Shown here piece after piece: positions 1-63,182 of a stretch of 64,000 nt of DNA. Under the pieces are notes generated by a model. The model was not told the DNA's origin. It searched no databases and saw nothing but the letters and a program-made list of their open reading frames with translations. A program made the translations under genes and the position numbers. Positions within the stretch are counted from its first letter, which is position 1. Each line of letters begins with the position of its first letter. The stretch spans positions 1 to 64,000 of the forward strand of contig JAGBLN010000042.1 of NCBI GenBank assembly GCA_017635395.1. The letters are read 5' to 3'. Source of the stretch: Lachnospiraceae bacterium. Lineage in GTDB: Bacteria > Bacillota > Clostridia > Lachnospirales > Lachnospiraceae.

Positions 1-28
1 ATTATATACGGGGACTACAATGCTTATT

Positions 29-856
29 TCACACATCTGCCTTTACCGCCTCGTATCTGTCATTAAACCAGCCACGGCTTTGGGAATAATACCCCTGTCC
101 GAGTATTTCCTTAAAAAGATCCCTTAACATGTTGAAAACAACAACTGCCATGATAAGCAGGCCGGGAAACATCACACGCTTCATGCCGTTCATCTTTCTG
201 GATGCATCAAACTCTTTCTCTCTCAGCAGTATGTTACTGTTGCTTATTCCCCCAAGCTTGAAAACACAAAACGGCATTTCCAGTTCCTTAAACCTATCCG
301 CATCCGATAAATATATTTTCAAAAAAAGATCAAAATCTGCAGCAATCTTATACCTGCTGTCAAACGAATACTTCCTGACAGCCTTAGTCCTTGTAATCGA
401 TGCCTGATGACAGATAGGATTAGTGTTCCTAAGCCTTTCAACAGACTCAGCCCTCAGCAGCTTGTACATTCCCTTTTCAAGCATAACTGCATCGCCATAC
501 AGTACGTCATACCGATCCGAAATCTCCGCAGAAAGATTTTTAAGCACATTTCTATCAAATAGAGCATCCCCAGCGTTTATGAATATGATCCACTCACCTG
601 CCGCATGGCCGGCAGCCTTATTCATTGCGTCATATAATCCCTCATCCTTTTCAGAGACCATATCGAATGAAATATTTTTTTCCCTAAAACGCGCCCTGTA
701 TCTTTCTGCAATATCAATTGTAGAATCATCCGATCCTCCGTCCATTATCAGATACTCATAGTCAGTAAAATCCTGATCAAGAACAGAGTTTATCGTATAC
801 TCAATATCTTTTTCCGCATTGAGGCATACGGTGATCACAGATATCAGAATACTCAT
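29..856 (-). CDS. family 2 glycosyltransferase
   Basis: 275 residues. The N-terminus has the GT-A fold opening SVITVCLNAEKDIEYTINSV and the segment YEYLIMDGGSDDST, both typical of family 2 transferases, followed by SEKDEGLYDAMNK and IFINAGD, the usual acceptor-side and DXD-equivalent region of the WcaA/colanic-acid-like subgroup. A hydrophobic stretch near residues 225-245 may anchor the C-terminus to the membrane. It probably transfers a nucleotide-activated sugar to an envelope polysaccharide or glycolipid; donor and acceptor cannot be read. Its ATG overlaps the stop of the upstream histidine kinase by 4 bases, so the two are probably translationally coupled and the two-component system may control it. 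Bases 1-28 after the stop hold nothing recognisable. Confidence 0.88.
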   Translation of the reverse strand: MSILISVITVCLNAEKDIEYTINSVLDQDFTDYEYLIMDGGSDDSTIDIAERYRARFREKNISFDMVSEKDEGLYDAMNKAAGHAAGEWIIFINAGDALFDRNVLKNLSAEISDRYDVLYGDAVMLEKGMYKLLRAESVERLRNTNPICHQASITRTKAVRKYSFDSRYKIAADFDLFLKIYLSDADRFKELEMPFCVFKLGGISNSNILLREKEFDASRKMNGMKRVMFPGLLIMAVVVFNMLRDLFKEILGQGYYSQSRGWFNDRYEAVKADV

Positions 857-2055
857 ACCTTCTTCACCAGCAGTTCAACTACAAATCCGTTATCGTTGTA
901 ATATTCAAAACCGCCGCCCTGTTTTTCCATGTATCTTTTTACAAGGTACATTCCAAGGCCGTATCCGTTTTTATCCTTTGAGTTTGAGCCTCTGTAGTAC
1001 TTCTCAACTAATAGTGGCAGTTCTTCCTCTGGAACGCCCTTCCCTTTGTCCCTGATTATTATCTTGACAAACCTGTCCTTCTTTCCCTCTGCATTAACAG
1101 TGATTTCAGTCTCTTTAAAAGAAACATGAATATCCGTCCCTGCATACTTGTAGGAGTTGCCTATCACATTGTCGATTACCTGCTCCATCCTGAGCTTGTC
1201 CATGTATACCAGGCATCCGGGAATGTGGCCGTCTATAATGATCTTGCCGTATTCCTTGAGATTCATAATGAATCCCTCTATTTCAGCGGAAGAATACTCA
1301 TCAATAGACATGCTGACTTCCTTCATGTCATCAATGGTGGCATGAAGTACATTCTGCACCAGCTCACTTATGGTGTCAGCCTTCTTGGTGATATAGCCCA
1401 CCTTCTCCTCAAGGTTTTCGATTTCAGCATACCTTGCCGCCAGTTCTGCGGAAATACTATCTTCATTCCCGCCGTCAGATTCTGCTTTAAGTTTCTCTAT
1501 TTCAGCCTTCTTCCTGGATATCTGCACCTCCAGGACCTCGCAGGTAGCCTGTATGGTTGCTACAGGAGTCTTCAGGTCATGGCTTAATTCCGCCACCAGC
1601 TGTTTCTTTGCGTTCTCCGCCTCTATCTCCCGCCGCTTCGACGCCCGCAGTTCCTCACGCATGATGTCAAAGCCCTCGGAAAATTCCACAAAACTGTTGT
1701 TCCTTTTCATCGGAAGGGGCACATCAAGATTCCCCTTCGCGATCTCTTCAGCAAATTTCTGCAGCTCCATTATCGGCTTCAGGTCCTTAAAGTAAATGAC
1801 CAGAAGCAGGACATACCCTGCCAGCATCATCAGTGCCCAGATGTATACCGTAAATATGAAGGTCTGCTCCTTGTACATATCCACGGAGTTATTCATCTGA
1901 TCCCAGATCTGCTTGTATATCTTTAGCTCTTCATCCGTGTATGACTCCGGTATCCTCTGGGCGAAGCGAAGGCTCTTGTGCAGACCGCAGATGATAAGCA
2001 GCACAACCGTCATAAACAAAGTATAAAAGAGCGCGATCTTCTTTAACCCTTTCAT
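853..2055 (-). CDS. sensor histidine kinase (HAMP-HisKA-HATPase)
   Basis: 400 residues. Two membrane segments (about 7-25 and 66-88) flank a short extracytoplasmic loop of some 40 residues. They are followed by a HAMP-like linker, an H-box ELSHDLKTPV (phospho-acceptor His near residue 158), an N-box with DNVIGNSYKYA, and G-boxes RDKGKGVP and NGYGLGMYLV. The dimerisation region carries a charged insertion of about 40 residues (around 180-222), which is longer than usual. The small outer loop suggests an intramembrane or partner-sensing kinase rather than a large ligand-binding sensor. The gene overlaps the response regulator upstream and the glycosyltransferase downstream by 4 bases each, making a three-gene unit. 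The signal is unknown. Confidence 0.93.
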   Translation of the reverse strand: MKGLKKIALFYTLFMTVVLLIICGLHKSLRFAQRIPESYTDEELKIYKQIWDQMNNSVDMYKEQTFIFTVYIWALMMLAGYVLLLVIYFKDLKPIMELQKFAEEIAKGNLDVPLPMKRNNSFVEFSEGFDIMREELRASKRREIEAENAKKQLVAELSHDLKTPVATIQATCEVLEVQISRKKAEIEKLKAESDGGNEDSISAELAARYAEIENLEEKVGYITKKADTISELVQNVLHATIDDMKEVSMSIDEYSSAEIEGFIMNLKEYGKIIIDGHIPGCLVYMDKLRMEQVIDNVIGNSYKYAGTDIHVSFKETEITVNAEGKKDRFVKIIIRDKGKGVPEEELPLLVEKYYRGSNSKDKNGYGLGMYLVKRYMEKQGGGFEYYNDNGFVVELLVKKV

Positions 2056-2816
2056 TCAGAAGGCTCCTCCAGTATGTATCCGGTTCCCCAGATAGTCTTT
2101 ATGATCTTGGGATCATTAGGATCCTCTTCCAGCTTTTCCCTGAGTTTCCTGATATGAACATTGAGCGTTCCGTCAGAATAGAAAGTATCACCCCATACTT
2201 CCTCGAAAAGGGCATCCTTCGTAACTATTGTATTCTTATGGGAGTAAAGACATTTTAAGAGAGCAAATTCTTTTGCCTTCAGGCTGATGTGCCTTCCATC
2301 CACCACCACCGACATAGTGGCATCCTCTATGGTAAATCTTTTTCCTGATGCGCCGGCTGCGTCAACCGTACTGTCTCCGCCTGCCGCAGGAACATCCTGT
2401 CCACCAGTACCGGAAACACTGCCGTCCCCGCCGGCCGAGATCTTCTTAAGTTCTTCGATTTTCTTTAGGTTGATCTTTACCTTTGCCAAAAGCACAGCTA
2501 AGCTGTAAGGTTTCTTGATATAGTCGTCACCGCCTATACTGAGAGCGATCAGTACATCGTCATCGCTCTGCCTGGCACTGATGAAAAGTATGGGGAGCTT
2601 ATACTTCTCCCTTACAGTCTTGCACACATCAAAACCAGAGCCGTCACCTAAATTGATGTCCAGCAGTATCAGGTCAGCCTCATTTTTATCAAGGAATTCA
2701 TAACACGAAGAGACGCTGTCAACATACTGCGTCTTTATGTCAAACATCTCGAAATACTCTGCCGTCATCTTGGCAAGCTCTATTTCGTCATCCACGATCA
2801 GACAGTTATAATGCAT
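2052..2816 (-). CDS. OmpR/PhoB-family response regulator
   Basis: 254 residues. The receiver domain opens YNCLIVDDE, has the phosphorylatable Asp in LILLDINLGDGSGF and the Lys in DDYIKKPYS. A winged-helix domain (about 165-252) carries the family landmarks TLNVHIRKLREKLEEDP and IWGTGYIL. The linker between them is unusually long and rich in Gly, Ala and Ser (about residues 128-163). A GGAGGGGG ribosome binding site lies a few bases before the ATG, inside the 3' end of the HD-GYP remnant. It forms an operon with the overlapping histidine kinase and is the expected phosphorylation partner. Confidence 0.94.
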   Translation of the reverse strand: MHYNCLIVDDEIELAKMTAEYFEMFDIKTQYVDSVSSCYEFLDKNEADLILLDINLGDGSGFDVCKTVREKYKLPILFISARQSDDDVLIALSIGGDDYIKKPYSLAVLLAKVKINLKKIEELKKISAGGDGSVSGTGGQDVPAAGGDSTVDAAGASGKRFTIEDATMSVVVDGRHISLKAKEFALLKCLYSHKNTIVTKDALFEEVWGDTFYSDGTLNVHIRKLREKLEEDPNDPKIIKTIWGTGYILEEPSE

Positions 2817-3184
2817 ATATCCCCCTCCGGACTACATCATGCAGCAGTGCCGCATAGTATATGAAGTCGCATTCTTCAGCATTCTTTCCTGCAAGCTCAG
2901 CTATCTTCCTGGAATATTCTGCCACCCTTGCGGAATGACCGTGAGTATATCTGTCCTTTGCATCTATGGCATTGACTAAGGCCGTTGCAGTCTGTTCGAA
3001 AAGCCGCCACACCACCAAGTGAAGCTGTATCTTTATATGACGCAGCCACCCCCACGCTGCCGTTCTCTGAAACATCCGAAACCGTCCCGCCGACATTCTC
3101 ACAGCCTGTCATTACAGCCATGAGCATTACAGCCGATAATGCAGAAATCATGCACTTCTTAAAAATCTTTTTCTCTAAATTCAT
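2806..3184 (-). pseudogene. frameshifted and truncated HD-GYP lipoprotein remnant
   Basis: Reading leftward from ATG 3184 (an alternative in-frame ATG is at 3202), the product starts with a signal peptide and a lipobox MAVMTGC, then a short linker ending SLGGVA. Near 2999-3004 the frame breaks. One base further on, the other frame continues with an HD-GYP domain: LFEQTATALVNAIDAKDRYT, then HGHSARVAEYSRKIAELAG and ALLHDV. Restoring one base would join them as ...GVAALFEQ.... The HD-GYP domain then stops straight after LLHDV, before the GYP half, where the sequence runs into the ribosome binding site of the response regulator. The ancestor was probably a surface-anchored HD-GYP-domain lipoprotein; both the frameshift and the missing C-terminus argue it is dead. 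Confidence 0.75.
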
Positions 3185-3290
3185 TGTCCTTAATATTTTC
3201 ATTATTGATTCACACGGACTGTTCTGCGCTAAGCGCCCCCACAATCCTGCCCACATTCGGACTCCCGCAGGGCTTACGACATACAGAATA

Positions 3291-3296
3291 TATTAT
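3291..3296 (-). promoter_or_regulatory. candidate -10 element for the 3.2-0 kb unit
   Basis: A perfect TATAAT on the minus strand lies about 105 bases upstream of the lipoprotein remnant, in the 150-base gap after the giant kinase-like gene. No good -35 box is visible at 16-18 bases, so this is a weak call. It could drive the two-component/glycosyltransferase unit. Confidence 0.3.
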
Positions 3297-3355
3297 ACCC
3301 TAATCGGGCCCAATATTCACCTGATACTGCAAAAAACAATACGGGCCTTTGCATC

Positions 3356-6300
3356 CTATTTCTGCAGATCTTCCACTTTGCTTATGTTTCCCCTCAGTGG
3401 ATTATGCCTCATGATTTCTTCGCGTTCATATTCATAGCGGGCGTTCCTGCCAAAATTCTGATCATCCCACCTTTTCGGGTCATGACGCTTCTTTTTTTCT
3501 GCCGCAAATGCCTGTTCAAATTCATTATCGGAAGCATATTTGGCATACTCCTTCACTCCGTAAATATAATTCCTGTTATCTATGGACAGGTAGGTTTTGC
3601 CGGGATCAACCGCCAGTTCGTTGATGTCCTTGAACTTCTTATAATCATCCTGCTTCAGGAAGAACTTACACTGCGGTTCCTCTGTCCAGCCCATGAGTTT
3701 ATAGAAGATTTCAGCCTTCTTCTTGGCCTCATCGATCTGCGCCAGCATTTCTTTTGCTCTTGCCTTGTTCATCAGTATCTTACGCTCATTGAAATCAAGT
3801 GCCTTAAGCTTGAGATTCAGAAGGTCAACGGTATCATCACTCGCCAGTTTCTTAAGTCCCTCGTATGCATCCTCATCATAATGAAGATAGGTCGGAAGGG
3901 TTATATCACCGCTGCCATCTTTATCCTGCAGTTCCTTAATGAGGGCATCCTTAGGCTTTGCCACCTCATATCTGCCCTCAAGCTGTAAGAATTTCTCAAT
4001 AACAACAGGATCCTCCTTATACGCATTTGTAAAGAAATATATGAACTGCTGTATCCATAAATCAATCTGGCCGTAGTTAGGCGACAGGGCAGCATCCATA
4101 TGGGTTGAAACATAGCGGAAATCATAGGTGTTATACAGCTTGTTAAGTTCATAGACATGTTCACACAGTTTTTCCTTTTCTTCTTTTGTATACTGTGTCT
4201 TAAAGTGCGTATAATACCATGGTACCTTTCTTATGTCCGGATACTTTTCTTTATATTCTGCAGTCAGCCTGTTTTTCTCTGCTTTATCCTCCTGACTGTC
4301 ACCCCTTATGACAATTTTTCGGATATCACTTATGACAGTGCCCAGCTTAGATGAAACTTCATCCAGGGCTTCACCGGTCACTTCATAAGGTTCCCCGGCC
4401 TTTTCCTGCGGCATCATCTGACCTGGGCGGCCCATAATCTCATTGAATTTTGTCAATTCTTTATCATCCGAAGGAATCCTGAATACTTTTCCATAAGTTT
4501 TATTCCTTTTCACATCATAATCATCAGCGGGCGGAACAATCTTTAGCTTCTCATCCGCCAGTTCCCAATGCTTTAAGAACGGATAGCATAGGCTCATGTC
4601 ATCCCCCATCTTTACCTTCTTGGTATCACTTATATACCGTGGGTGACGCATATGGGGCAGCTCTGCATTCTTTACAATGTCCGGCAGCATTTTAAAGCGT
4701 TCATACTTGAGGTATTTAAAGAAAGCGCTGTCTTTCTTTATCTTGGTAGTCATAGGCGGAAGGAAGCCCTGGAAGTCAAGTGAACCGTCCTTCTCATTTA
4801 CCTTAAAGGTATCCTTAAGCTCTTCCTCAGCAAATGACATATCCTGGTCATATGACATGATATTTTTGATCAGGATCCTTCCGTTCGTTTCCTCATACTC
4901 GCACTTGAGGTTACGGCCATGACGGTCCACCTGACGAGTCACCGTATCAAGTGCCTGAAGCCTCATAAGCTGTCTTATGGCATCCGGCGTATAATCTATT
5001 TTCTTTCTGCCCGCATTCTTGAGCACTGTCAGGAATTCAGCACCCTTCGCAGCCTCTGTCACAGTACAGAAATCCTCAACAGTATTGCCGTCACGATCCG
5101 TAAACCTGACTATCCTGATATCCGAAGCCGTAACAACATCCGTAAGGCCTGTTATCTCTGCAATCCTGTATACGCCGGAATTATTTGCGGCAGACTGTTC
5201 TCTTTCATCCCCTTTTCCACGGTCACGCATCTGTCCGAAAAGCTCTACTTCCTTGCCAAGCATCACGCAGAAGATTTTTTCCAGACCATGTTCAGTATCG
5301 GCCTGATGAGCCGCGGTCAATGCCCTGATGATATCGGCATCCTTGTTATCATCAAGATCCTCCTTGAGCTTTTCCAGCATCCACTGAAGGGCATCCTTCT
5401 TTTCCAGTTTTACTTCTGCATTACCCTGACCCTCACCGGCAGCTGCCTTTTCGCCCTGAATCCTTACAATCATTACAGCAATGTCATGCAAAGGATGCTC
5501 TGCTGACTTGGAAATCTCGGTCCAGTCAGTATCAGCGTTATTGACAGCGTAATCTATCGCGGTATTGTATGCCTGAAGTTCATTGAACATCCTGTCGAAG
5601 TCATGACGGAAGATGTTGGTTATGGTCTTATCCACCTTAGACTTGTCAGCCATAGACGCTTTGTCTCTTTTTTTCTTAAGTTCACCAAGGAAATCAAGAG
5701 CAAGCTGATAATCAGGATCTTCCATACCGGCCTTGCTAAGCCTGTGCTCCACCTTCTCTTTAATCTTCGGATCAGTAGCCCCGTTGCGTTCCCTGCTGGT
5801 CTTAAGCTGACTGATACGCCTATCCAGGAATCCATTGATGTCCGCACTTATGAGGGGAAGATTCCTCTTAAGGTAATATTCTTTATCCTGGCCATTTTCC
5901 TTGATCTTTACATAGTAAACATCAGTAGAGTTACCCTCATTCTGCCATTGGGCTTCACCAAGAACAACAGAAGACCTGAAATACGTTGAAAGCTCTCTTG
6001 GACTTTTATCCTTATTCTTCTCTACGGAATTCTCCGTAAGGGACTCAAACTTGATAGCCTCCACAAGATTGTCATACTTAGGCTTTTCTTCCTCAAGCAT
6101 ATTAATCATTTGCATGACTTTCTGCTTTCTCCTGATGCCATGACGCTTCCTTGCCTTACCCTCACGATCCTTTTTATCCACATAATTTACGCAGGCACTG
6201 TGGGCCTCATCAAATGCGGTATCCAGCTCCTCCTTGAGCTTAGCAGTATCAAAAGTTTTCCGCTGGCCCTCCATTTTGATATATCTTTCCATCTTGAGGT

Positions 6301-53769: not shown

Positions 53770-54846
53770 TCACTCAAACAGCACGCCTTTGAAGCACACC
53801 TTAGGCCTTTCATTTTCATAATCCCAGCTATGATATGCTCCGCCCCTGCACCACTTTGCCTCCGGACAGGATGCACATTTTTCATTGCGATCGGATAAGG
53901 GATTGCGGAATATCTGAAAGCGTTCCTTCCATATCTTCGTAAAACTGTCCTCGTAGATATTGCCCTGTATGGATTTTTCATTATGGGGAATATCCAGGCA
54001 TGCAGTCACATCACCATTAACCAGTATACCAGCCACATATATTCCGGCATTGCAAAGGAAATACCAGTCACGGACTTCCGCCTCATACTTTGTTCCCAGG
54101 AAGTGACAGCACGAATATGTCACCGGGATTCTCTGCTCACGCTTTGCCTTAATGAACTCCATCAGATACCTATTGTCATCAGGTGTCAGCAGCATATTGG
54201 GAACAAGCTCCGCACGGCCTATGGGCTCTATGCCGGTAAGACGCCATTCGTTGATATCAATGTTGTCGAATATCTCAAACAGCTGATCCAGTTCTTTTAT
54301 GTTCTCATGATTAACTACAGTTGTAACCATAGTGGTAAAGCAGTCCTCATCCACCAGGTTCTGTATGCCCTGCATACCAAGTTTATACGCATCCTTTAAG
54401 CCCCTGTATCTGTCATGGGTTTCAGGAATACCGTCGATGCTTAAGGAAATACTGCGCATGCCTGTCTCTTTCAGGCGGCGCGCCACTTCCTTCGTGATCA
54501 GGGTGCCGTTGCTGGTCATTCCCCAAGGAAAACCTAGCTTATGGATATACTCCACAAGCTCAAAAAAGTCAGGGTAAAGCAAAGGCTCACCGCCGGTTAC
54601 GGCGATCAGCAGTTTAGTACCGAAGTTTGCCTTCACTTCATCCAGGATTTCTTTATATTTTTCCAAAGGAAGACCGTCCGGCAGATTGCCGGCACAGCTG
54701 CTGCCACAGTGGAAGCAGTGCTCATTACACTTCAATGTCAGCTCCAGAAAAAGCTGGCGCAGTTCAGGCTCACGGCAAAGTTTCCTCTGATGCTCCGCAA
54801 GCATATCCAGGTTAGCTACTTTTATCTCTTCTCTCGTCATGGCCAT
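53770..54846 (-). CDS. radical SAM/SPASM peptide-modifying enzyme (candidate)
   Basis: 358 residues. The radical SAM cluster motif CNEHCFHC (Cys 40, 44, 47) follows LFLELTLK; the SAM-binding GGEPLLYPDFFELVEYIHKL and SLSIDGIPETHDRYRG are intact. The C-terminal SPASM region has many Cys: YFLCNAGIYVAGILVNGDVT, ACLDIP, KCASCPEAKWCRGGAYHSW and VCF. SPASM proteins mostly modify ribosomal peptides or protein side chains. The start overlaps the stop of the YGPP-repeat gene (TAATG), the strongest form of coupling, so that product is the likely substrate. No transporter or protease gene lies next to it. Confidence 0.85.
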   Translation of the reverse strand: MAMTREEIKVANLDMLAEHQRKLCREPELRQLFLELTLKCNEHCFHCGSSCAGNLPDGLPLEKYKEILDEVKANFGTKLLIAVTGGEPLLYPDFFELVEYIHKLGFPWGMTSNGTLITKEVARRLKETGMRSISLSIDGIPETHDRYRGLKDAYKLGMQGIQNLVDEDCFTTMVTTVVNHENIKELDQLFEIFDNIDINEWRLTGIEPIGRAELVPNMLLTPDDNRYLMEFIKAKREQRIPVTYSCCHFLGTKYEAEVRDWYFLCNAGIYVAGILVNGDVTACLDIPHNEKSIQGNIYEDSFTKIWKERFQIFRNPLSDRNEKCASCPEAKWCRGGAYHSWDYENERPKVCFKGVLFE

Positions 54847-55229
54847 TATTCCACAGGAGGTCCATAGACATCGGCATTCTCATTATTATCGACATCCACT
54901 TCTTCAGGCGGACCGTACAGCGGAGGTTCCTCATTGTCACTCACTGTAGCGAAATCATCCGACACGGTATCGTCCTCACTCTCCTCCATCTCAAAGTCAG
55001 CAGGCGGACCATAAACAGCGGCTGGTTCATTATCATCTATATCAATATCAAAATCCACTGGGGGACCATAGACATCTTCCTGCTGATTGTCTTCTATGCC
55101 AAAATCAGTAGGCGGACCATAAACTGCAGGCACATCTGCACCCTGTCCGCAGGCACTAAAACCTCCGACACTGAAAAGCGTCACGGCTGCCATTCCGAAA
55201 ACGGACGCTTTCTTCTTTGTCATTTTCAT
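54846..55229 (-). CDS. YGPP-repeat lipoprotein-like peptide, probable radical SAM substrate
   Basis: 127 residues from ATG 55229, five bases after GGAGGGG. It has a signal peptide with a lipobox GGFSAC (Cys about 27), then an acidic, Pro-rich region with five copies of [V/L]YGPP at intervals of roughly 16-31 residues (AVYGPPTDF, DVYGPPVDF, AVYGPPADF, LYGPPEEV, DVYGPPVE). The spacers are rich in Asp, Glu and Asn and look disordered. Overlap with a radical SAM/SPASM gene suggests that the Tyr or nearby residues in each repeat are modified, giving a decorated surface-anchored or released peptide. I do not recall a described family with this repeat. Confidence 0.8.
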   Translation of the reverse strand: MKMTKKKASVFGMAAVTLFSVGGFSACGQGADVPAVYGPPTDFGIEDNQQEDVYGPPVDFDIDIDDNEPAAVYGPPADFEMEESEDDTVSDDFATVSDNEEPPLYGPPEEVDVDNNENADVYGPPVE

Positions 55230-55292
55230 AATATCCCCTCCATAACGAACACTTTGTTCTTGCCGCACTTACGTGGCATAACCACCAGCATT

Positions 55293-55322
55293 ATTATAAT
55301 ATATTTACGCTTCAGCCTTCAA
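55293..55322 (-). promoter_or_regulatory. promoter of the YGPP/radical SAM pair
   Basis: Minus-strand TTGAAG (55322-55317), 18-base spacer, TATAAT (55298-55293), about 64 bases before the YGPP start. The -35 box lies within the last codons of the adenylate cyclase gene, so the pair can be expressed on its own. Confidence 0.55.
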
Positions 55323-57243
55323 CTGACTTATTTTCACCTTCAGCCTCGTTCTCAGCATTCTCATTCTCCGGCATGTTCCCGGCCACGCAGTAAAGCGCAC
55401 GGCGCCTTGCCATCTCTTCCGGACCAGGAGCAGGAATATCCTTGTGCACAGCCGTCACGGAATAAACAACAACACCGTTTTTCTTACCCTTCAGAGGGAT
55501 GACGCCGACTTCTTCCACATCCACTCTTTCCTTTACGCGGGCATAGAGCACATCACTTATATATACCTTTCCGGCGCCGGCATTTGCTTCAAGCCTGGCC
55601 GCTGTATTGACAGTATCGCCTATGGCGGTGTAGTCCATACGGAAATCACAGCCTATGTTACCGGTAACGGCAGGTCCGCAGTTTACGCCCACACCAAATC
55701 CGATCTTTCGGCCGAACTGTTCCTCTATCTTCTGGTTCAAGGGTTCGCTTCCCATTGCGATATCCATTGCCGCACAGACACTCTTAAACTCATAGTCATC
55801 CAGGTCGAAGGGTGAATTAAATACTGCCATTGTACAGTCACCCACGAACTTATCCAGGGTACCCAGATTGTCAAACACAGCCTTGGTGGTAAGTGCAAGG
55901 TACTGGTTCAATATGGCCACTACATCCTCAGGGCTTAACGCCTCCGACATGGTAGTGAATCCTCGTATATCAACGAATAGCGCTGATATATCACGGCTCT
56001 CACCGCCGAGACTTACCTTATAAGTTCCTGTCTGCGCAATTTCCTCAATGATCTGAGGCGCCACATACTTGCTAAAAGCCTGCAGGATCCTGGCCTTATT
56101 TTTATATTCCTGAATATACCGTTTAGCCAAGCTATATACATAAAACAGAATGACCACTATCGGGAAATATATGATGCTGATGACTATGCCCTTATTATTA
56201 TGCATCATGACGCCGAACATCACTTCAGCCGCTATCATAAGCACAGCAGCAATTGACGCAATGACCACATGCAGCCTTCTGCATACTAATACTAACAGTG
56301 CAGCTACTATTGCAAAAATGATTGCATAGAGATAGGGATTTCCGTTTACTGAGAAACGGTTCTGCATGAAAGCCTGCAGGATGTTCGCGTGGATCTCCAC
56401 TCCGTACATCTGCTTTGTTCCACCGGTTGGTACATTGAAATTATCCATCATGCCAGGCGCATATGCACCTACCAATACAATACAGTTGGAGAATGCCCTG
56501 GGATCGATTTTTCCCTCCAGCACATCTACCAAAGAAACATACTCATAGTCACCGGGGCGTCCGGAATAATCTATTATGGACCTGCCGTACTGGTCCTTGG
56601 AATAAGCAAGGGGCTCCACATGCTGATTCTCGCAGTATTTCTTATATATCATCCATGGGAAGCTTCTATAAACGGTACCATTATACTCAGTTTCCGTAGT
56701 TATACGGCGCACCGTTCCGTCAGAATCCTGGGAAACATTTGAGTATCCCATATAACACTCATCCGCAAGTTCCTGAAAAGGAAGATAAATATCCTTTACG
56801 GCATGATAGATATTTCCGTTGGGATCACGCAAAGGCATATCGTCATATTTAAACTGACCTACCACAACCACATTGCCGTATTCTCTGGCAGCCTCGGCAA
56901 AAGCCATATCCCCTGCCTCATCCACATGACCGGAAAACTGTATATCGAAACCTATGATATCCGGTTCGTTTTCAGGATCCTCGGTCAGCTTTTTTATCAG
57001 GTCTGCATATATGGAACGGGACCAGGTATTTATGGGGCCGTACTTTTCAAGAGTGTTCTCATCCACACCTATTATCTTAATCTTGCTCGAAACGCCTCGT
57101 GGAGTCTGATACAGTGCATCAGTTGCCAGATAGTCAAGCCTGGAAAAAGCATTTGTTACAGTAAGTATAAAAACAAGTCCTGCTGCCAGAAGCATGAACA
57201 GTATGTCGTATATGACTTCATTTATATTCTTTTTTTCTTTCAT
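55312..57243 (-). CDS. CHASE2 class III adenylate cyclase
   Basis: 643 residues. One N-terminal helix (about 10-30), an extracytoplasmic CHASE2 domain (about 35-290: IKIIGVDENTLEKYG, DIIGFDIQFSG, IVLVGAYAPGMMDNFNVPTG), three membrane helices (about 300-370) and a class III cyclase domain (about 400-600). Catalytic residues are visible: metal Asp in ALFVDIRGFTT and KFVGDCTMAVF, the adenine-selecting Lys in LDKFVGD and Asp-type position in MDYTAIGD, transition-state Asn and Arg in TVNTAARLE. It should make cAMP in response to an external cue. It lies 26 bases downstream of an InlB-repeat gene and near a FecR gene, a pairing often seen with CHASE2 cyclases. Confidence 0.93.
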   Translation of the reverse strand: MKEKKNINEVIYDILFMLLAAGLVFILTVTNAFSRLDYLATDALYQTPRGVSSKIKIIGVDENTLEKYGPINTWSRSIYADLIKKLTEDPENEPDIIGFDIQFSGHVDEAGDMAFAEAAREYGNVVVVGQFKYDDMPLRDPNGNIYHAVKDIYLPFQELADECYMGYSNVSQDSDGTVRRITTETEYNGTVYRSFPWMIYKKYCENQHVEPLAYSKDQYGRSIIDYSGRPGDYEYVSLVDVLEGKIDPRAFSNCIVLVGAYAPGMMDNFNVPTGGTKQMYGVEIHANILQAFMQNRFSVNGNPYLYAIIFAIVAALLVLVCRRLHVVIASIAAVLMIAAEVMFGVMMHNNKGIVISIIYFPIVVILFYVYSLAKRYIQEYKNKARILQAFSKYVAPQIIEEIAQTGTYKVSLGGESRDISALFVDIRGFTTMSEALSPEDVVAILNQYLALTTKAVFDNLGTLDKFVGDCTMAVFNSPFDLDDYEFKSVCAAMDIAMGSEPLNQKIEEQFGRKIGFGVGVNCGPAVTGNIGCDFRMDYTAIGDTVNTAARLEANAGAGKVYISDVLYARVKERVDVEEVGVIPLKGKKNGVVVYSVTAVHKDIPAPGPEEMARRRALYCVAGNMPENENAENEAEGENKSVEG

Positions 57244-57269: not shown

Positions 57270-59945
57270 CTATTTTTTAATAAACTTATATTCCTTATTT
57301 TCCTTTACATAGAATTTGTTTCCGCCTGTGTATACAGTATTGTCTACAACACCATCTGCTTCTACCATCCATTCGCTGTCGCCCTCAAAGGAATATGCAA
57401 TATTCGACTTAAGGGTTACCACACGTCCTGTTGGCATTACATTATTGGACATCCACTGTGGTGAAAGTTCTATGGTAAATGTGTAGCTGTTCCCTGCCTT
57501 ATCTGTCGCCACTACAACCCATGACTCAGTATCAGAGCCAGCATCAAGGGTTATTACGCTTTTTCCATTTGAGACCTCATACGGTTCGCCATTCACAGTC
57601 ACCTTTTCAAGATTATCATCTTCCAGCGTGAAGGTAAGATTATCCAAAGTAACCTTTACGGTCCCGCTCGGATTATTTATTCCAAGACTGCTGTCAAACT
57701 TTGCTACTGGAACCTTCGTGTCAACTTTTGCTGAAGGATCAAAATCTACCCCGTCGGTCATCGCTCCGTCATCGCGTTTATAATATAGTTTCTCTATCTT
57801 ATCGTTCCACTTTATGGAATCAGTATATCCAGTGCCAAGCGTGGTGCTTATGAGATACCCCTTCGGAGCCTTTATCTCAACATCAGACTTAAACCATCCG
57901 TCATTGCCTTTCTTGCCATCCAGGTAGGCCTTATCAGAAGGCGCTTCCAGATATACAATCGAAAAGTTCTTGGTCTCGTTTACGGCAAGGTATAATCCCG
58001 ACGCAGGTGCGCTAAACCTTACAGTGTAGTCTCCCGGTGTAATTGGCACTGTTCCTGAATAGGCAGTATCAGGTGCCCCTGCCTTTTTGTATTCAATTTT
58101 CTTTTCCGCAGGCGATAGCGACGATGCGGTAACTTTTAGTTCCGTGCCATAATAGACTTTCGACGGCACCGTTAGGCTAATCTTATCGGTCAGATGATAT
58201 TCAGCAAGCTTGACAGCCTCGGTAACTGCCTTATCCGCTTCACGCTTAAGATAAACAGAACCGCCGGCCGCTTTCACCGCTGTATAAGATATCGACGATA
58301 CAAAACCTTCATCAGCAGAAGACGATATGCTATAGCCTTCCGCAGGGATAACATTCACATCCGTAACTGTCCCTGCACTGTTCTTAACTTCCTGATATGA
58401 ATAAGGATTATCGGGCGCAGCCAGATAAGCGATCTCAAAATCCGAAGTATCTTCCGCTGATGTATAATCATCTGTCTCGTCAAGAGTTACCCTTACCGTA
58501 TATTTTCCGGGTTCCTTAGGCACCTTCTTTGAATACTCTTCGTCCTTGTCATCCTTTTTCTTGTATTCTACCGTTACATCGCCTTCTGAATTTTTTTCTA
58601 TATCATATTTTATCTCAGTGCCTACATAAACAGGCTTCTTTAAATCTATATCAATTGTCCCTTTAGTCTTCTCTGTCCATATAGCATCAAATGTAAGTGG
58701 GCCAGATGTTAGAAAAACATCATACTCATCACCAAGACCATATTTCACGCCTTCCTGCGACTTCCAACCTGTAAGCTTATAACCACCCCGTATAAAATCC
58801 GCTGATTTCAGGAGCGTAAAGCTGCCTTCATCATAGATATCCAGCTTCACAGACTCACTCTCGCTTATGGCTTCCCCTTTTCCACCGTTAGGTCTGTAGG
58901 TTACCAGTATATTAATGGTCGGAAGCTCTTCCCATATTGCATTAAAGTACAAGTCTGTGACATCCGAAGAAAAACCGTAAGAATCACCTAAAGAATATGT
59001 ATCCCCCGCTGAATCCTGCCAGCCTACAAGCCTGTATCCCTCCCGAGTCATTTCTGTTGTATTCCATAGACTAAAACTCCCTGTTTCAGGTGCACTGGCG
59101 GCAAGATCCACAGTCTTTGTCTGTGTCACCACTGATCCGTTACCTCCATTCGGATCATAGTGCACATTTATAGTAACAGAAGACAAGGGTTCCCAAACCG
59201 CATAAAAATCAAATGTCGCAGGGCTGCTAAATCCATAACTATACCCCGGAGCATACTCCATGTCTCCACCGCCGTCTTCTCTCCACTTAACAAGCGTATA
59301 ACCAGTTCTTGAAAAAGTATCTGCAGCGGCTAATTCAAAAGAATCACTTGAACTGTCACTCTCAAACTGGGTCAGTACCGTATCTGTAGTAGTGGTGTTG
59401 CTTCCATCGTTCGAATGATAATTGACTGTAGTTTCATATTCTGCCACATAGACAACGAGAAAAATATATGGCGCAAGATTAGATCCGATTGGGAGCGGTG
59501 CCCGCACTTTTTTTTGGGATTCATACATTTTCCATGATTTTATACGACTTCCACTGGGAACAGTTACAGAAGAGCCACTAACATAATTAACTTCTAATAC
59601 TCTTTTTTCTCCATCGCAAGCATTAATACTAGCTATAGCATTATCTATCGAATCCGTGTTAGTTCCCACCGAATCATATGCATCACTTGCCATTGCCTCA
59701 TGTTCGCAAAAAACGATATATGTTCCGGCCCAAGATTCAGTTAAACTGCCTGTGGGCGGAGTTGCCGTAAGGGTAGCTCCAGGGGTCAGTGTTCCGGAGA
59801 GATAAAGATCGAATTCCGAAGCTGCATATACACTTGTGTGTATGCATAGAAAATTTGTGCCGGACAATAAGCACAGCATAGTAAAAGCAGCCAACAGCAT
59901 GCGCAATATTCTCTTTTTTGAACCATTACCATAACGCATAAGCAA
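57270..59945 (-). CDS. secreted InlB-repeat/Ig-like protein (copy A)
   Basis: 891 residues. The start is ambiguous: TTG 59945 lies 5 bases after AGGAG, ATG 59939 (MRYGNG) 11 bases after it. A signal peptide ends near VYAASE. After a 130-residue N-terminal domain come three InlB B-type repeats (about 180-410), each with YxPNGGxG ... REGYxLxGW ... FxAIW. Then there are several immunoglobulin-like modules with YVGTEIKYD...VEYKKK...PGKYTVRV patterns and a C-terminal module ending YTGGNKFYVKENKEYKFIKK. No LPXTG or membrane anchor is visible. It is likely an extracellular binding protein and precedes the CHASE2 cyclase by 26 bases. Confidence 0.85.
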   Translation of the reverse strand: MLMRYGNGSKKRILRMLLAAFTMLCLLSGTNFLCIHTSVYAASEFDLYLSGTLTPGATLTATPPTGSLTESWAGTYIVFCEHEAMASDAYDSVGTNTDSIDNAIASINACDGEKRVLEVNYVSGSSVTVPSGSRIKSWKMYESQKKVRAPLPIGSNLAPYIFLVVYVAEYETTVNYHSNDGSNTTTTDTVLTQFESDSSSDSFELAAADTFSRTGYTLVKWREDGGGDMEYAPGYSYGFSSPATFDFYAVWEPLSSVTINVHYDPNGGNGSVVTQTKTVDLAASAPETGSFSLWNTTEMTREGYRLVGWQDSAGDTYSLGDSYGFSSDVTDLYFNAIWEELPTINILVTYRPNGGKGEAISESESVKLDIYDEGSFTLLKSADFIRGGYKLTGWKSQEGVKYGLGDEYDVFLTSGPLTFDAIWTEKTKGTIDIDLKKPVYVGTEIKYDIEKNSEGDVTVEYKKKDDKDEEYSKKVPKEPGKYTVRVTLDETDDYTSAEDTSDFEIAYLAAPDNPYSYQEVKNSAGTVTDVNVIPAEGYSISSSADEGFVSSISYTAVKAAGGSVYLKREADKAVTEAVKLAEYHLTDKISLTVPSKVYYGTELKVTASSLSPAEKKIEYKKAGAPDTAYSGTVPITPGDYTVRFSAPASGLYLAVNETKNFSIVYLEAPSDKAYLDGKKGNDGWFKSDVEIKAPKGYLISTTLGTGYTDSIKWNDKIEKLYYKRDDGAMTDGVDFDPSAKVDTKVPVAKFDSSLGINNPSGTVKVTLDNLTFTLEDDNLEKVTVNGEPYEVSNGKSVITLDAGSDTESWVVVATDKAGNSYTFTIELSPQWMSNNVMPTGRVVTLKSNIAYSFEGDSEWMVEADGVVDNTVYTGGNKFYVKENKEYKFIKK

Positions 59946-60476: not shown

Positions 60477-63182
60477 CTATTTCCCCTTCACCGCAACAAA
60501 ACTACATGTTTTATCAGTTTTGACATAAACAGTGACACCCTTTTCATAAACAGTAGCATCCCCGGTTTTATCAGAAAACTTACACTTTGAGCTCAGTGTA
60601 TACGGTTCACCACTTAATAACTGCACATCCATTTCCATTGGTATATCTCCGGACTGTCGCCATGCCGGGGTCAGCACTATTTCCAGGGTATATTCATTAC
60701 CTGCTTCATCCGTAGCAATGACAGTATTCGTCTCCGATAACAGCCCCGGTTTCAGGACCACAGTGCACTCACCATTCGAAACAGTATATGTATTTTTTCC
60801 CACCCGTACCGATTTAAGATGATCATCCTTTATCGTGAATGTCAGTGAATCTGCATAAATACTTACACTCTTCTCCTTGCCGGTTATTCCCAGCGAACTG
60901 TCAAAAACAGCCGTTGGCATCTCTTTATCTATCTTTACATTAAAGGATACTTGTACAGCACCTGTCTTAGCCTTATCGCTTGTCCTCTGGTAGTAGAGTT
61001 CAGTTATCCCTTCATTCCATTTTATGGATTCTCCGAATGTTCCGTCAGCTGACGTGCTTATGAGATACCCTGCAGGTGCCTCCAGCGTCACATCAGACTT
61101 ATACCATGACCCGTTACCCGGTGTACCTTTCAATTTAACTCCAGCCGCCGGAGCTTCCAGATACTCAATTGTAAAATCTGCTGTTTCATCCACAGCTGCA
61201 TAAAAATCCGTTGCAGGTGCAGTAACCCTTACAGTATACTTGTCAGGTTTGGTAGGCATAACTGCGGAATATGTGCCGCCTGCCCCTGCCTTCTTATACG
61301 TAATCGTCTTTTCTGCCGGTGAATGGGATGTGACAGTCACATTATACTGCGTACCATAGTATATCTTCCCTGATGCAGCCGATGCAGGCGTTACTGTTAT
61401 GCTTGGCTTATCAGTTACGGTATATGCCGTCAGCTGTACCTGTTCCGTAATAGCGTCATCATCACGTTTCAGATACACTCCCCCTGCTTTCTTTGCTGCT
61501 GAATAGAGTACACTTGATCCGAATGAAGCATCGGCTGCTCCTGTAAGCCCGATGCTGTAGCCTGATGTCGGCACGACATTCAGATCCGTAACCGTACCCG
61601 CGCTGTCCTTTATCTCCGTATATGTAAACGGTGACGCCGGTGCAGACAGATACTGCAGTTCAAAATCCACCGTATCCTCTGCCGATGTATACTCATCTGT
61701 TTCCTCGAGCGTAGCCCTTACAGTATATGTTCCGGGTTCTGTCGGTACCTTCTTTGTATAGTCGTCATCCTTTGCGCCTTTTTTCTTATATTCAAGCGTA
61801 ACATCTCCATCAGAATTCTTATCAGTGTCATACTTGAATTTCGCGCCCACATATACAGGTTTCTTAACATCTATCTCCACTTTGCCGGCTTTTTTAGCCG
61901 TCCAGACTGCGTCAAAGCTGAGATTTTTGCTTGTTTCATTGTCCGCCAGTGTAAAACTGTAGTTTGCACCCAGGCTATAAGTCTTGCTTCCGTCAGACCA
62001 TCCCGTCAGCGTATACCCGGATTTTTTAAAATCAGCCTTATCAAGCAATGACATCTGGGCAGAATTGTTGCTGGCAGATACGCTCACCGTTTTATTCTGA
62101 ATAACTGCATCACCGTTCCCGCCATTTGGCTTATACTGTACACTGACATCCACTGAAGTCCTTTCCCAGATTGCGTCAAAAACAAGGGTTTCTGAATTGG
62201 CAGAAAAAGTACATTCATCCCCTAAATCATATTCTTCTTTACCATCCGTCTTTTCCGGTTCAGTAATCTTCCATCCTGCCAAAGTATAGCCTTCCCTGGT
62301 AAAATCGGCAGATGACAAAAGATCTATGGTTCCGAAATCCCCGCCGGCATCAGTCTCGAATTCTATGGTTTTATTCACAGCACTGCCGGTACCACCGTTT
62401 GGTCTGTATGTGACAGTTACTGTGGGGATTTCTTCCCACTGTGCCGTAAAACTAACAATATATGGGCCATATAAGTACAAGTCAAAGTTTTCACCCGGAG
62501 CACCTGTCTCATTATCACCAAAGTCAGACTGCCACCCAACAAGTTCATACCCCTCACGCGTAAAAGTATCTGCGTTTCTAAGTGTTATTGAAATAGGTGT
62601 AGTACTATCCTCAAAGACCATCGAAGAAGAATTATCTCGCACAGTATCACCTTCGGCGCCATCCCCGGGCAGATACCATACCCCAACAGAGAACTCGGCA
62701 ACGTAAGCGGCAACATAACAATATCTGTTGTAGTCAGAATCAAATACTTTTTTATTGTCCTTTTGCACCCATGCATCAACACTGTATACACCGGAACCGT
62801 AATTTATCACGGATGGTACCGGTATAAAACATGCAAAAGGATTGTCGACATCATAATCCTGCTCCCCGCGCTCTACTTTCCCATAGTTCCCAAGATTTCC
62901 TATCTGGCTTTTATCACTCACACTGTTCAGTGCCTGCTCTGCTTTTTTTTCGCTATCACAAAATACAACATAGCATCCATCGCACTTAGTTACATCCACG
63001 CTATCAGGAGTATATATAATACTACCGTTTGCAACTACTCTATCAGGAAAACTCACATCAGCTCTCGCCCGCAGAGTTCCTATCCCCTGCACACCTTCCA
63101 TATTAACCAGCAGCCCCACTATCACCAGTGCCGCCAGCAGATTTTTTATAATATTCTTTTTTACCCAGGAAATATTACTCAT
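60477..63182 (-). CDS. secreted InlB-repeat/Ig-like protein (copy B)
   Basis: 901 residues. Signal peptide MSNISWVKKNIIKNLLAALV..., cleavage probably near RARADV. It has the same architecture as copy A: N-terminal domain with CYVVFCDSEKKAEQAL, three InlB B-type repeats (about 175-430; YRPNGGTGSAV, REGYTLAGW, FDAIW), Ig-like modules with YVGAKFKYDTDKNSDGDVTL and PGTYTVRATL, and a C-terminal module ending VYVKTDKTCSFVAVKGK. Long stretches are near-identical in pattern to copy A, indicating duplication. It lies 25 bases downstream of the FecR gene and is likely co-transcribed. Lacks an obvious cell-wall anchor. Confidence 0.85.
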   Translation of the reverse strand: MSNISWVKKNIIKNLLAALVIVGLLVNMEGVQGIGTLRARADVSFPDRVVANGSIIYTPDSVDVTKCDGCYVVFCDSEKKAEQALNSVSDKSQIGNLGNYGKVERGEQDYDVDNPFACFIPVPSVINYGSGVYSVDAWVQKDNKKVFDSDYNRYCYVAAYVAEFSVGVWYLPGDGAEGDTVRDNSSSMVFEDSTTPISITLRNADTFTREGYELVGWQSDFGDNETGAPGENFDLYLYGPYIVSFTAQWEEIPTVTVTYRPNGGTGSAVNKTIEFETDAGGDFGTIDLLSSADFTREGYTLAGWKITEPEKTDGKEEYDLGDECTFSANSETLVFDAIWERTSVDVSVQYKPNGGNGDAVIQNKTVSVSASNNSAQMSLLDKADFKKSGYTLTGWSDGSKTYSLGANYSFTLADNETSKNLSFDAVWTAKKAGKVEIDVKKPVYVGAKFKYDTDKNSDGDVTLEYKKKGAKDDDYTKKVPTEPGTYTVRATLEETDEYTSAEDTVDFELQYLSAPASPFTYTEIKDSAGTVTDLNVVPTSGYSIGLTGAADASFGSSVLYSAAKKAGGVYLKRDDDAITEQVQLTAYTVTDKPSITVTPASAASGKIYYGTQYNVTVTSHSPAEKTITYKKAGAGGTYSAVMPTKPDKYTVRVTAPATDFYAAVDETADFTIEYLEAPAAGVKLKGTPGNGSWYKSDVTLEAPAGYLISTSADGTFGESIKWNEGITELYYQRTSDKAKTGAVQVSFNVKIDKEMPTAVFDSSLGITGKEKSVSIYADSLTFTIKDDHLKSVRVGKNTYTVSNGECTVVLKPGLLSETNTVIATDEAGNEYTLEIVLTPAWRQSGDIPMEMDVQLLSGEPYTLSSKCKFSDKTGDATVYEKGVTVYVKTDKTCSFVAVKGK

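Follow-up and report, generated by a model that had tools for sequence, protein, structure and literature searches.

In a stretch of 64,000 nucleotides from a Lachnospiraceae bacterium (NCBI GenBank assembly GCA_017635395.1, contig JAGBLN010000042.1, positions 1 to 64,000; hereafter the window), the gene of a predicted lipoprotein carrying five Tyr-Gly-Pro-Pro (YGPP) sites is directly followed by the gene of a radical S-adenosylmethionine (SAM) enzyme with a SPASM domain. We have found that the pairing of these two genes is not a matter of chance, and that YGPP behaves as a portable tag occurring also on unrelated proteins. On the basis of sequence comparison and the analogy with spliceotides, we give a somewhat better than even chance (about 0.55) to the reading that the enzyme would excise tyramine at each Tyr-Gly in the manner of a splicease, without need of a leader, leaving alpha-keto-beta-amino acids and removing 135 Da per site.

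The lipoprotein-enzyme pair and its conservation

The first-pass annotation of this DNA had reported a predicted lipoprotein of 127 residues with five [V/L]YGPP motifs, whose stop codon overlaps the start codon of the radical SAM/SPASM gene, and these points were confirmed in the sequence, the overlap reading TAATG on the minus strand. The features of the two-gene unit are as follows.

54846..55229, minus strand: YGPP-repeat lipoprotein gene, 127 residues plus stop, putative multi-site substrate (sequence and conserved pairing)
55152..55229, minus strand: signal peptide, residues 1-26 (sequence; aligned with 10 relatives)
55149..55151, minus strand: lipobox Cys27, predicted lipidation site (sequence)
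55110..55121, minus strand: YGPP site 1, VYGPPTDFG (sequence)
55059..55070, minus strand: YGPP site 2, VYGPPVDFD (sequence)
55002..55013, minus strand: YGPP site 3, VYGPPADFE (sequence)
54906..54917, minus strand: YGPP site 4, LYGPPEEVD (sequence)
54855..54866, minus strand: YGPP site 5, VYGPPVE (sequence)
53770..54846, minus strand: radical SAM/SPASM enzyme, 358 residues, putative modifier of the YG sites (PF04055 at 4.4e-27 and PF13186 at 1.1e-9, both above cut-off)
54694..54729, minus strand: CxxxCxxCGSxC (C40, C44, C47, C51), the radical SAM cluster motif with a fourth invariant Cys (all four in 81 of 81 sequences)
53794..54111, minus strand: SPASM region, C246, C265, C283, C324, C327, C333 and C351 (all seven in 81 of 81 sequences)
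55235..55241, minus strand: ribosome-binding site GGAGGGG of the lipoprotein gene (read by eye)
55293..55322, minus strand: promoter-like site TTGAAG-18-TATAAT before the two-gene unit (consensus match alone)

The lipoprotein begins with MKMTKKK, and we prefer the ATG at 55229 as its start over the upstream GTG at 55268 because GGAGGGG stands at 55241-55235. Matches to the promoter consensus numbered 7, against 3.5 expected in shuffles. The lipobox reads GGFSAC in the window protein and TAGC, LAGC or IGGC in its relatives, whose Cys lies three residues earlier in the alignment; Phe at lipobox position -3 is unusual. Both the window protein and the relatives have the signal peptide and lipobox Cys of bacterial lipoproteins, from which lipidation is predicted, and tethering to the cell surface would follow from the signal peptide. 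The acidic mature part holds four VYGPP and one LYGPP. At the DNA level the five sites are written in four distinct 11-base versions, with one identical pair (each site was matched over 11 of its 12 bases and the twelfth base of the coordinates was added by hand). When the mature part of 100 residues was shuffled 100,000 times, one YGPP appeared in 732 shuffles, two in 2 and three or more in none, against the five observed.

We examined the neighbourhood of the enzyme at the best 80 of 111 relatives obtained in a scan of bacterial genomes, which are 48-99% identical; most are recorded as Lachnospiraceae or other clostridia, and many come from rumen samples. A YGPP frame is present within the fetched flank at 63 of the 80 loci: counting frames of at least 40 codons, it lies within 300 bases upstream at 54 loci, within 300 bases downstream at 5 and farther away at 4, and 45 of the 54 upstream frames overlap the enzyme gene or sit within 50 bases of it. 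Among the 17 loci with no such frame in the flank, 11 belong to genomes with a YGPP protein elsewhere, three show a variant next to the enzyme gene (YGIP in L019, YGSP in L065 and YGPG in L062), two (L016 and L039) have YGPP frames that the contig end truncates to 29 and 20 codons, and the last (L068), with neither YGPP nor a variant, has an enzyme that is itself cut by the contig end. The records of three named isolates (AB2028, XPB1003 and YSB2008) hold the pair.

Besides the YGPP protein, no neighbour family recurs in more than 8 of the 80 loci (frames of at least 90 codons), and among small frames (40-130 codons, on the enzyme strand, within 2.5 kb) none occurs in more than 4 of the 80, except the YGPP family at 34 loci. 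No other neighbour family being shared more widely, there is no dedicated protease, transporter or recognition element (RRE) gene near the enzyme. A classical cluster for a ribosomally synthesised and post-translationally modified peptide (RiPP), with protease and transporter genes, was rejected for want of any further conserved neighbour at these loci. A mobile or phage origin was also rejected, two pattern-based scans of viral contigs having yielded no relative; one distant phage record stands at 28.5% identity.

In the window itself, a gene with CHASE2 and adenylate/guanylate cyclase domains (55312-57243, minus strand) lies just upstream of the pair and does not belong to the widely shared neighbour families. 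Farther upstream, 57270-59945 and 60477-63182 (minus strand) encode two large proteins that look mutually similar by eye; both have a signal-like start and contain Listeria-Bacteroides (Flg_new) repeats. In L015 (positions 1-6001), about 5.7 kb separates the YGPP lipoprotein from the enzyme, and the stretch holds kinase-like and response-regulator-like genes (by eye) and a zinc-ribbon protein with GMNQMGQM repeats; the distances in L024 and L033 resemble that of L015.

Another check was the co-occurrence of the two proteins in 299 genomes of the family, covering 298 genera, in 18 of which the enzyme was called at E 1e-60. The lipoprotein profile (A1, E 1e-3) matched 23 genomes, and in 11 of these the matched protein contains YGPP; in the remaining 12 the match is the signal peptide region and the stretch read has no YGPP. 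All 11 are among the 18 enzyme genomes (Fisher p 9e-16, a value to be read with the reservation that related genomes are not fully independent and that the genome of the window is counted among the 11). The first-pass annotation had coupled the lipoprotein to the enzyme and had named homologues without the enzyme in most genomes as a refutation; none of the 11 profile-found YGPP genomes lacks it, and a dedicated pair is borne out here as at the 63 loci. A profile of the repeat unit (A2, E 1e-3) matched 9 genomes, five of which had supplied rows to the profile, and all 9 are among the 18. At E 0.01-0.05 it matched nine more, of which G042 and G220 have the enzyme, and G034, G097, G156, G178, G215, G236 and G251 do not; in the four of these seven that we inspected (G097, G156, G178 and G215), the YGPP frames are taken as chance because in each case a longer frame occupies the opposite strand.

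The enzyme genomes outside the 11 were examined individually. G220 encodes a lipoprotein in which YGPAP occurs twice. In G268, whose enzyme frame runs to the contig end, there is a zinc-ribbon protein with IYGPPP, and members of that same family with IYGPKPE and IYGPMPE occur in G049 and G112; G286 has two small lipoprotein-like proteins with YYGCPNS. In G061 the enzyme frame has no CxxxCxxC and the stretch read has no YG partner, and in G209 the enzyme frame is no more than partial and lies beside a lipoprotein reading LYAPPP. An X-Tyr-Gly partner is therefore present in all 16 enzyme genomes without a frame defect and in neither of the two defective ones, where an assembly error is possible. 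The zinc-ribbon family occurs in 5 of the 299 genomes, all five with the enzyme (p 4e-7). The window's own genome, which is 72.6% complete, has one enzyme of this type and, on G000 contig 57, a second short lipoprotein with a single VYGPAP directly after the lipobox Cys.

The in-frame TAA at the enzyme match of G286 is the stop of the preceding small gene, and the enzyme frame after it is open. There (L145:4457-6456), proteins ending in YYGCPNS..KKLNLxKKKR, the last part being variable, flank an enzyme frame of 526 codons, as a divergent version of the pair.

The tag and its carriers

Statistics of the tag were taken from 70 lipoproteins minus the near-duplicate L003_1, giving 166 unique YGPP contexts; eight YGPP frames for which the script found no start plus lipobox (L015, L041, L059, L060, L061, L064, L077 and L081) were excluded. 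The residue before Tyr is Val, Leu, Ala, Ile or Met in all 166 contexts (Val in 145), Asn stands at -6 in 137, acidic residues are frequent around the site, and at the sixth position after Tyr the most frequent residue is Phe (54 of 163). The consensus is approximately [FY]xP[ED][DE]N-x4-[V/L]-Y-G-P-P-E-x-F, which some sites match incompletely. The YGPP sites are the conserved element, and their repetition had been noted in the first-pass annotation. Looser partners keep X-Y-G, as in VYGPAP, VYGSP, IYGPKP, IYGPMP and YYGCP, and so do the TIGR04134 lipoproteins discussed below, with CEYGSP, CEYGTP and CYGMP. The four letters YGPP do not by themselves identify a tag, for the same genome has a Walker A motif (L088; AAA-type by eye) with the sequence CLYGPPGTGKT; greater specificity comes from the extended motif.

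The carriers are diverse. Some are lipoproteins: short acidic ones with one to seven YGPP copies, others that include an M15 peptidase domain, and others in which a stretch weakly resembles lipocalins (below the Pfam cut-off). The tag also stands on a protein that has an Ig-like domain, in the C-terminal tails of two membrane proteins of the DUF805 type, and on zinc-ribbon proteins with no visible export signal. To the last kind belong the cytosolic-looking double zinc-ribbon proteins of L194, L195, L144, L198 and L199, which have YGPP, YGPKP or YGPMP between the ribbons. At L060:4509-5558, a prolipoprotein diacylglyceryl transferase (Lgt, the enzyme that lipidates lipoproteins; PF01790, E 6e-77) has a C-terminal tail with DEDLSKLNPTVYGPPEMM and stands directly before a YGPP lipoprotein and the enzyme; the C-termini of Lgt proteins are cytoplasmic. 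The partner most like a classical RiPP precursor is a predicted peptide of 47 residues with a single VYGPPEWF (L196; G027 contig 51, 42300-43500).

Because the tag is also found on non-lipoproteins, neither a lipoprotein signal nor a RiPP leader would be needed for recognition, if these carriers are substrates. The first-pass annotation had seen the lipoprotein export signal in the place of a leader; this signal is probably not essential, given the tags on DUF805 and zinc-ribbon proteins, the Lgt tail and the 47-residue peptide, and it resembles ordinary signals of the family, profile A1 having matched 12 of its 23 genomes at signals with no YGPP. On both grounds, namely that tagged proteins without it exist and that A1 also picks up ordinary lipoprotein signals, we rejected the lipoprotein signal as a required, dedicated leader.

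Kinship of the enzyme and the probable chemistry

The enzyme alignment comprises the window enzyme and the 80 loci (81 rows; profile A3 was built on 34 of these 81), and every row has the CxxxCxxC motif and the SPASM cysteines of radical SAM/SPASM peptide maturases. Among NCBIfam models, TIGR04133 gave the window enzyme its highest score, 280.5 bits, which leads the next family by 132 bits and falls short of the cut-off of 425, three genuine members scoring 451-618. The other scores were 148 bits for AhbD, 137 for MftC, 137 for NirJ2, 121 for NirJ1 and 114.2 for TIGR04103, whose cut-off is 725. The window enzyme shares 33-38% identity with the genuine TIGR04133 enzymes, which come from plasmid-labelled records of Phocaeicola, Parabacteroides and Treponema. 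In one tree, whose root is for drawing only, the YGPP and TIGR04133 enzymes stand together with support 89/90, beside a branch with TIGR04103, TIGR03913 and their kin (97/97), and MftC lies apart; in another tree they stand together at 94/94, and in each of the three trees that we made TIGR04133 forms a branch of its own with support 100/100. Residues G48, G105, G129, H144, T176, W201 and E255 are common to the YGPP enzymes, TIGR04133 and at least five of six rows of the splicease side, and are not found in two MftC rows. The window enzyme is kin to TIGR04133 and, more remotely, to TIGR04103/TIGR03913.

Several observations on related enzymes are added here. The YGPP-type enzyme frame at L047:1970-3643 has about 557 codons, possibly through a fusion or a lost stop. 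The L082 contig is filed under Alistipes, and its enzyme nests among clostridial ones in the tree; in a genome of the same order as L082 the genes read look clostridial, so that the metagenome-assembled genome or its label is doubtful. A radical SAM protein of an Agathobacter rectalis plasmid (L175:2995-4149) groups with the TIGR04103-like L180 and adjoins a major facilitator superfamily transporter; the one small neighbour read there has no YG.

We prefer splicing because the common element of the partners, X-Tyr-Gly, is the site of the PlpX splicease, and recognition without a leader fits because tags sit on proteins lacking lipoprotein signals. In the scheme that we propose, the two genes would form a minimal modification system, in which the enzyme would recognise a short local tag, present in five copies in the window lipoprotein, with no classical leader or RRE; the modified chain would then be exported and anchored as a lipoprotein. 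The product would be an acidic, probably disordered strand at the cell surface bearing up to five electrophilic ketoamides. As to its function, we suggest with low confidence that it would most likely inhibit proteases at the cell surface, or provide an electrophilic handle; in the review PMC10373908, potent protease inhibition by ketoamide products and a wide distribution of splicing are credited to Scott et al. 2022. The first-pass annotation had expected a loss of 2 Da per repeat, which is probably the wrong mass, -135 Da being expected if the enzyme acts as a splicease.

Several points weigh against splicing. The window enzyme is 28.5% identical to a TIGR04103 enzyme, which is no closer than to MftC (29.5%, 31.9%), and the models of AhbD, MftC, NirJ2 and NirJ1 outscore TIGR04103 on it. 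The third tree leaves open the order of the YGPP branch, the TIGR04133 branch and the branch on the TIGR04103/TIGR03913 side. Among the conserved neighbours at the 80 loci there is no PlpY-like RRE partner, an RRE gene elsewhere not having been sought. A genuine TIGR04103 row and a TIGR03913 row read CGSRAG and so lack the fourth Cys. According to PMC10533398, PlpXY did not act on most of the tags engineered into FtsZ (the table lists 2 as accepted), so that XYG alone is insufficient, and Pro-Pro after Gly is far more conserved here than a bare XYG rule needs. The chemistry, moreover, is carried over by comparison of sequences and by likeness to spliceotides. It is because of the identities, the model scores, the absent RRE partner, the missing fourth Cys and the unaccepted FtsZ tags that we place splicing no higher.

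Among the alternatives, a crosslink within each YGPP that joins Tyr, through its ring or side chain, to a carbon of Pro or to another nearby residue, giving a cyclophane or ether as in the triceptide and daropeptide classes, with -2 Da per repeat, appears rather unlikely to us. The repeated aromatic core with conserved neighbours would suit it, Pro at +3 being nearly as constant as Gly, and TvgB does give -2 Da per repeat on a repeat-built peptide (PMC9062424). The third residue, however, varies among partners (P, A, S, T, M, C, I) and some read YGPxP, which leaves nothing, apart perhaps from a Pro, as a fixed partner for the crosslink; among the relatives compared here, those whose site is known, PlpX and MftC, act at X-Tyr. 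Somewhat less likely still is another modification of Tyr or Gly, such as epimerisation, dehydrogenation, hydroxylation or a decarboxylation-type reaction like that of MftC on Val-Tyr: MftC is the third-best family of the window enzyme, and according to PMC9062424 its target is a C-terminal Tyr next to a Val, whereas the YGPP sites are internal with no free carboxylate, and the two MftC rows differ at the aforementioned seven positions common to the others.

Modification of the lipoprotein by the enzyme is putative, and the two might be mere neighbours, the lipoprotein serving, for example, to sense the real product of the enzyme or as a scaffold for it. We regard this as improbable, since YGPP proteins that are not linked to the enzyme still track it, an unrelated zinc-ribbon family with the same kind of site occurs in five of the 299 genomes, always with the enzyme, and no intact YG partner was seen, within the stretch read, for the two defective enzyme matches (the partial frame and the frame lacking CxxxCxxC). 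As for a repeat arising from low complexity by chance or from faulty assembly, the composition is indeed acidic and Pro-rich, and YGPP also turns up in the Walker A motif and in four antisense frames of enzyme-less genomes; we count this explanation as refuted, because not one of the shuffles reached three copies, the pattern stands beside the enzyme at most loci (63 of 80), and the three named isolates hold it.

If splicing is indeed the chemistry, a wider possibility, which we put forward tentatively and with the odds somewhat against it, is that one enzyme per genome edits the backbone of many unrelated YGPP-tagged proteins, and that the ketoamide beta-amino acids so introduced serve as a mark, either regulated or electrophilic. 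The targets would then be lipoproteins, DUF805 proteins, zinc-ribbon proteins, M15-peptidase lipoproteins and, in one genome, Lgt, and there would be no secreted peptide natural product. Ketoamide protein splicing would then affect several proteins of the cell in bacteria of the gut and rumen, and a compact natural tag independent of leader and RRE would be useful for labelling and inhibitor design.

In the library searched, no paper names TIGR04133 or TIGR04134 and none contains YGPP together with 'radical SAM'. By kinship the pair falls within a family that is already annotated, and the chemistry that it probably performs has been described for spliceotides; what is new, as far as we have searched, is the repeat-bearing clostridial branch, the defined portable tag, the unrelated carriers and the co-occurrence test, part of which may be in print. 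A radical SAM/lipoprotein pair that NCBI lists as a 'hypothetical equivalog' thereby gains a concrete, testable chemistry and a defined tag.

Comparison with known systems

The nearest system is the TIGR04133/TIGR04134 pair of Bacteroidota and Treponema, in which the gene of a SPASM enzyme with CxxxCxxCGSxC, belonging to the best-scoring NCBIfam family for the window enzyme, is paired with a lipoprotein gene. The TIGR04134 lipoproteins have YGxP at the lipobox or a few residues after it (CEYGSPHANF, CEYGTPSADY and CYGMPENYY), and in the window pair likewise the adjacent gene encodes a lipoprotein with YGxP after the lipobox. Of the lipoproteins beside the three genuine TIGR04133 enzymes, two are annotated as radical SAM-associated putative lipoproteins, and all three, at 44-207 bits, exceed the TIGR04134 cut-off of 39.8. 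The window lipoprotein matched no NCBIfam family at E up to 1, and hence neither TIGR04134 nor a Nif11 or NHLP leader. The three TIGR04134 lipoproteins inspected have one YGxP followed by a KGKVTD-type domain, whereas in the clostridial set the YGPP sites number one to seven, lie for the most part in acidic spacers and are found on non-lipoproteins as well. TIGR04134 was found in none of 56 genomes of the order of G018, an order that looks clostridial by the genes read and is uninformative on Bacteroidota. The first-pass annotation could not place the pair in a described class. We amend this: the window enzyme is, by its likeness, a clostridial relative of the TIGR04133/TIGR04134 'rSAM/lipoprotein' pair that misses both TIGR cut-offs, and the sites match the X-Tyr-Gly of spliceases.

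The second system is PlpXY (TIGR04103, nif11-class maturase 3), which shares the X-Tyr-Gly site, in places as YGxP(P); PlpX is listed as IPR026482, which we take to be TIGR04103. A genuine TIGR04103 enzyme of Nostoc (853 bits) adjoins a Nif11 precursor ending in ALYGLPPELF, close to the VYGPPExF consensus, and the TIGR04103-like enzyme L180 (219 bits), from another genome of the phylum, adjoins a peptide with AYGIARP (NHLP-type by eye). In 299 genomes of the phylum, the TIGR04103 search gave one match at E 1e-60, below the cut-off. PMC10533398 describes PlpXY as acting on XYG with a loss of 135.0757 Da per site (removal of tyramine), the leader being dispensable and a tag of about ten residues sufficient, and gives PLYGLPI among the engineered tags; spliceotide precursors have several sites each (PMC10373908), and PlpX works with its RRE partner PlpY (PMC11002830). 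The window system differs in having no Nif11 or NHLP leader, its partner being a lipoprotein or another protein.

The GDL/DUF1843 peptide system (TIGR03913) is similar in that a SPASM enzyme accompanies small partners. XYG is present in three of five DUF1843 peptides beside Azospirillum TIGR03913 enzymes (LYG, PYG and PYG), the other two reading MYMA, and in one of three partners of a related Aureibacter enzyme. It differs in its single Tyr site near the N-terminus, with no Pro-Pro or export signal, and the partners without XYG read MYMA or YAA. In TvgAB, finally, according to PMC9062424, a radical SAM enzyme also acts on every copy of a short repeated motif, but the motif is TVGG, the cluster has five genes including peptidase and transporter genes, and the product is a cyclopropane on Val (poly-cyclopropylglycine).

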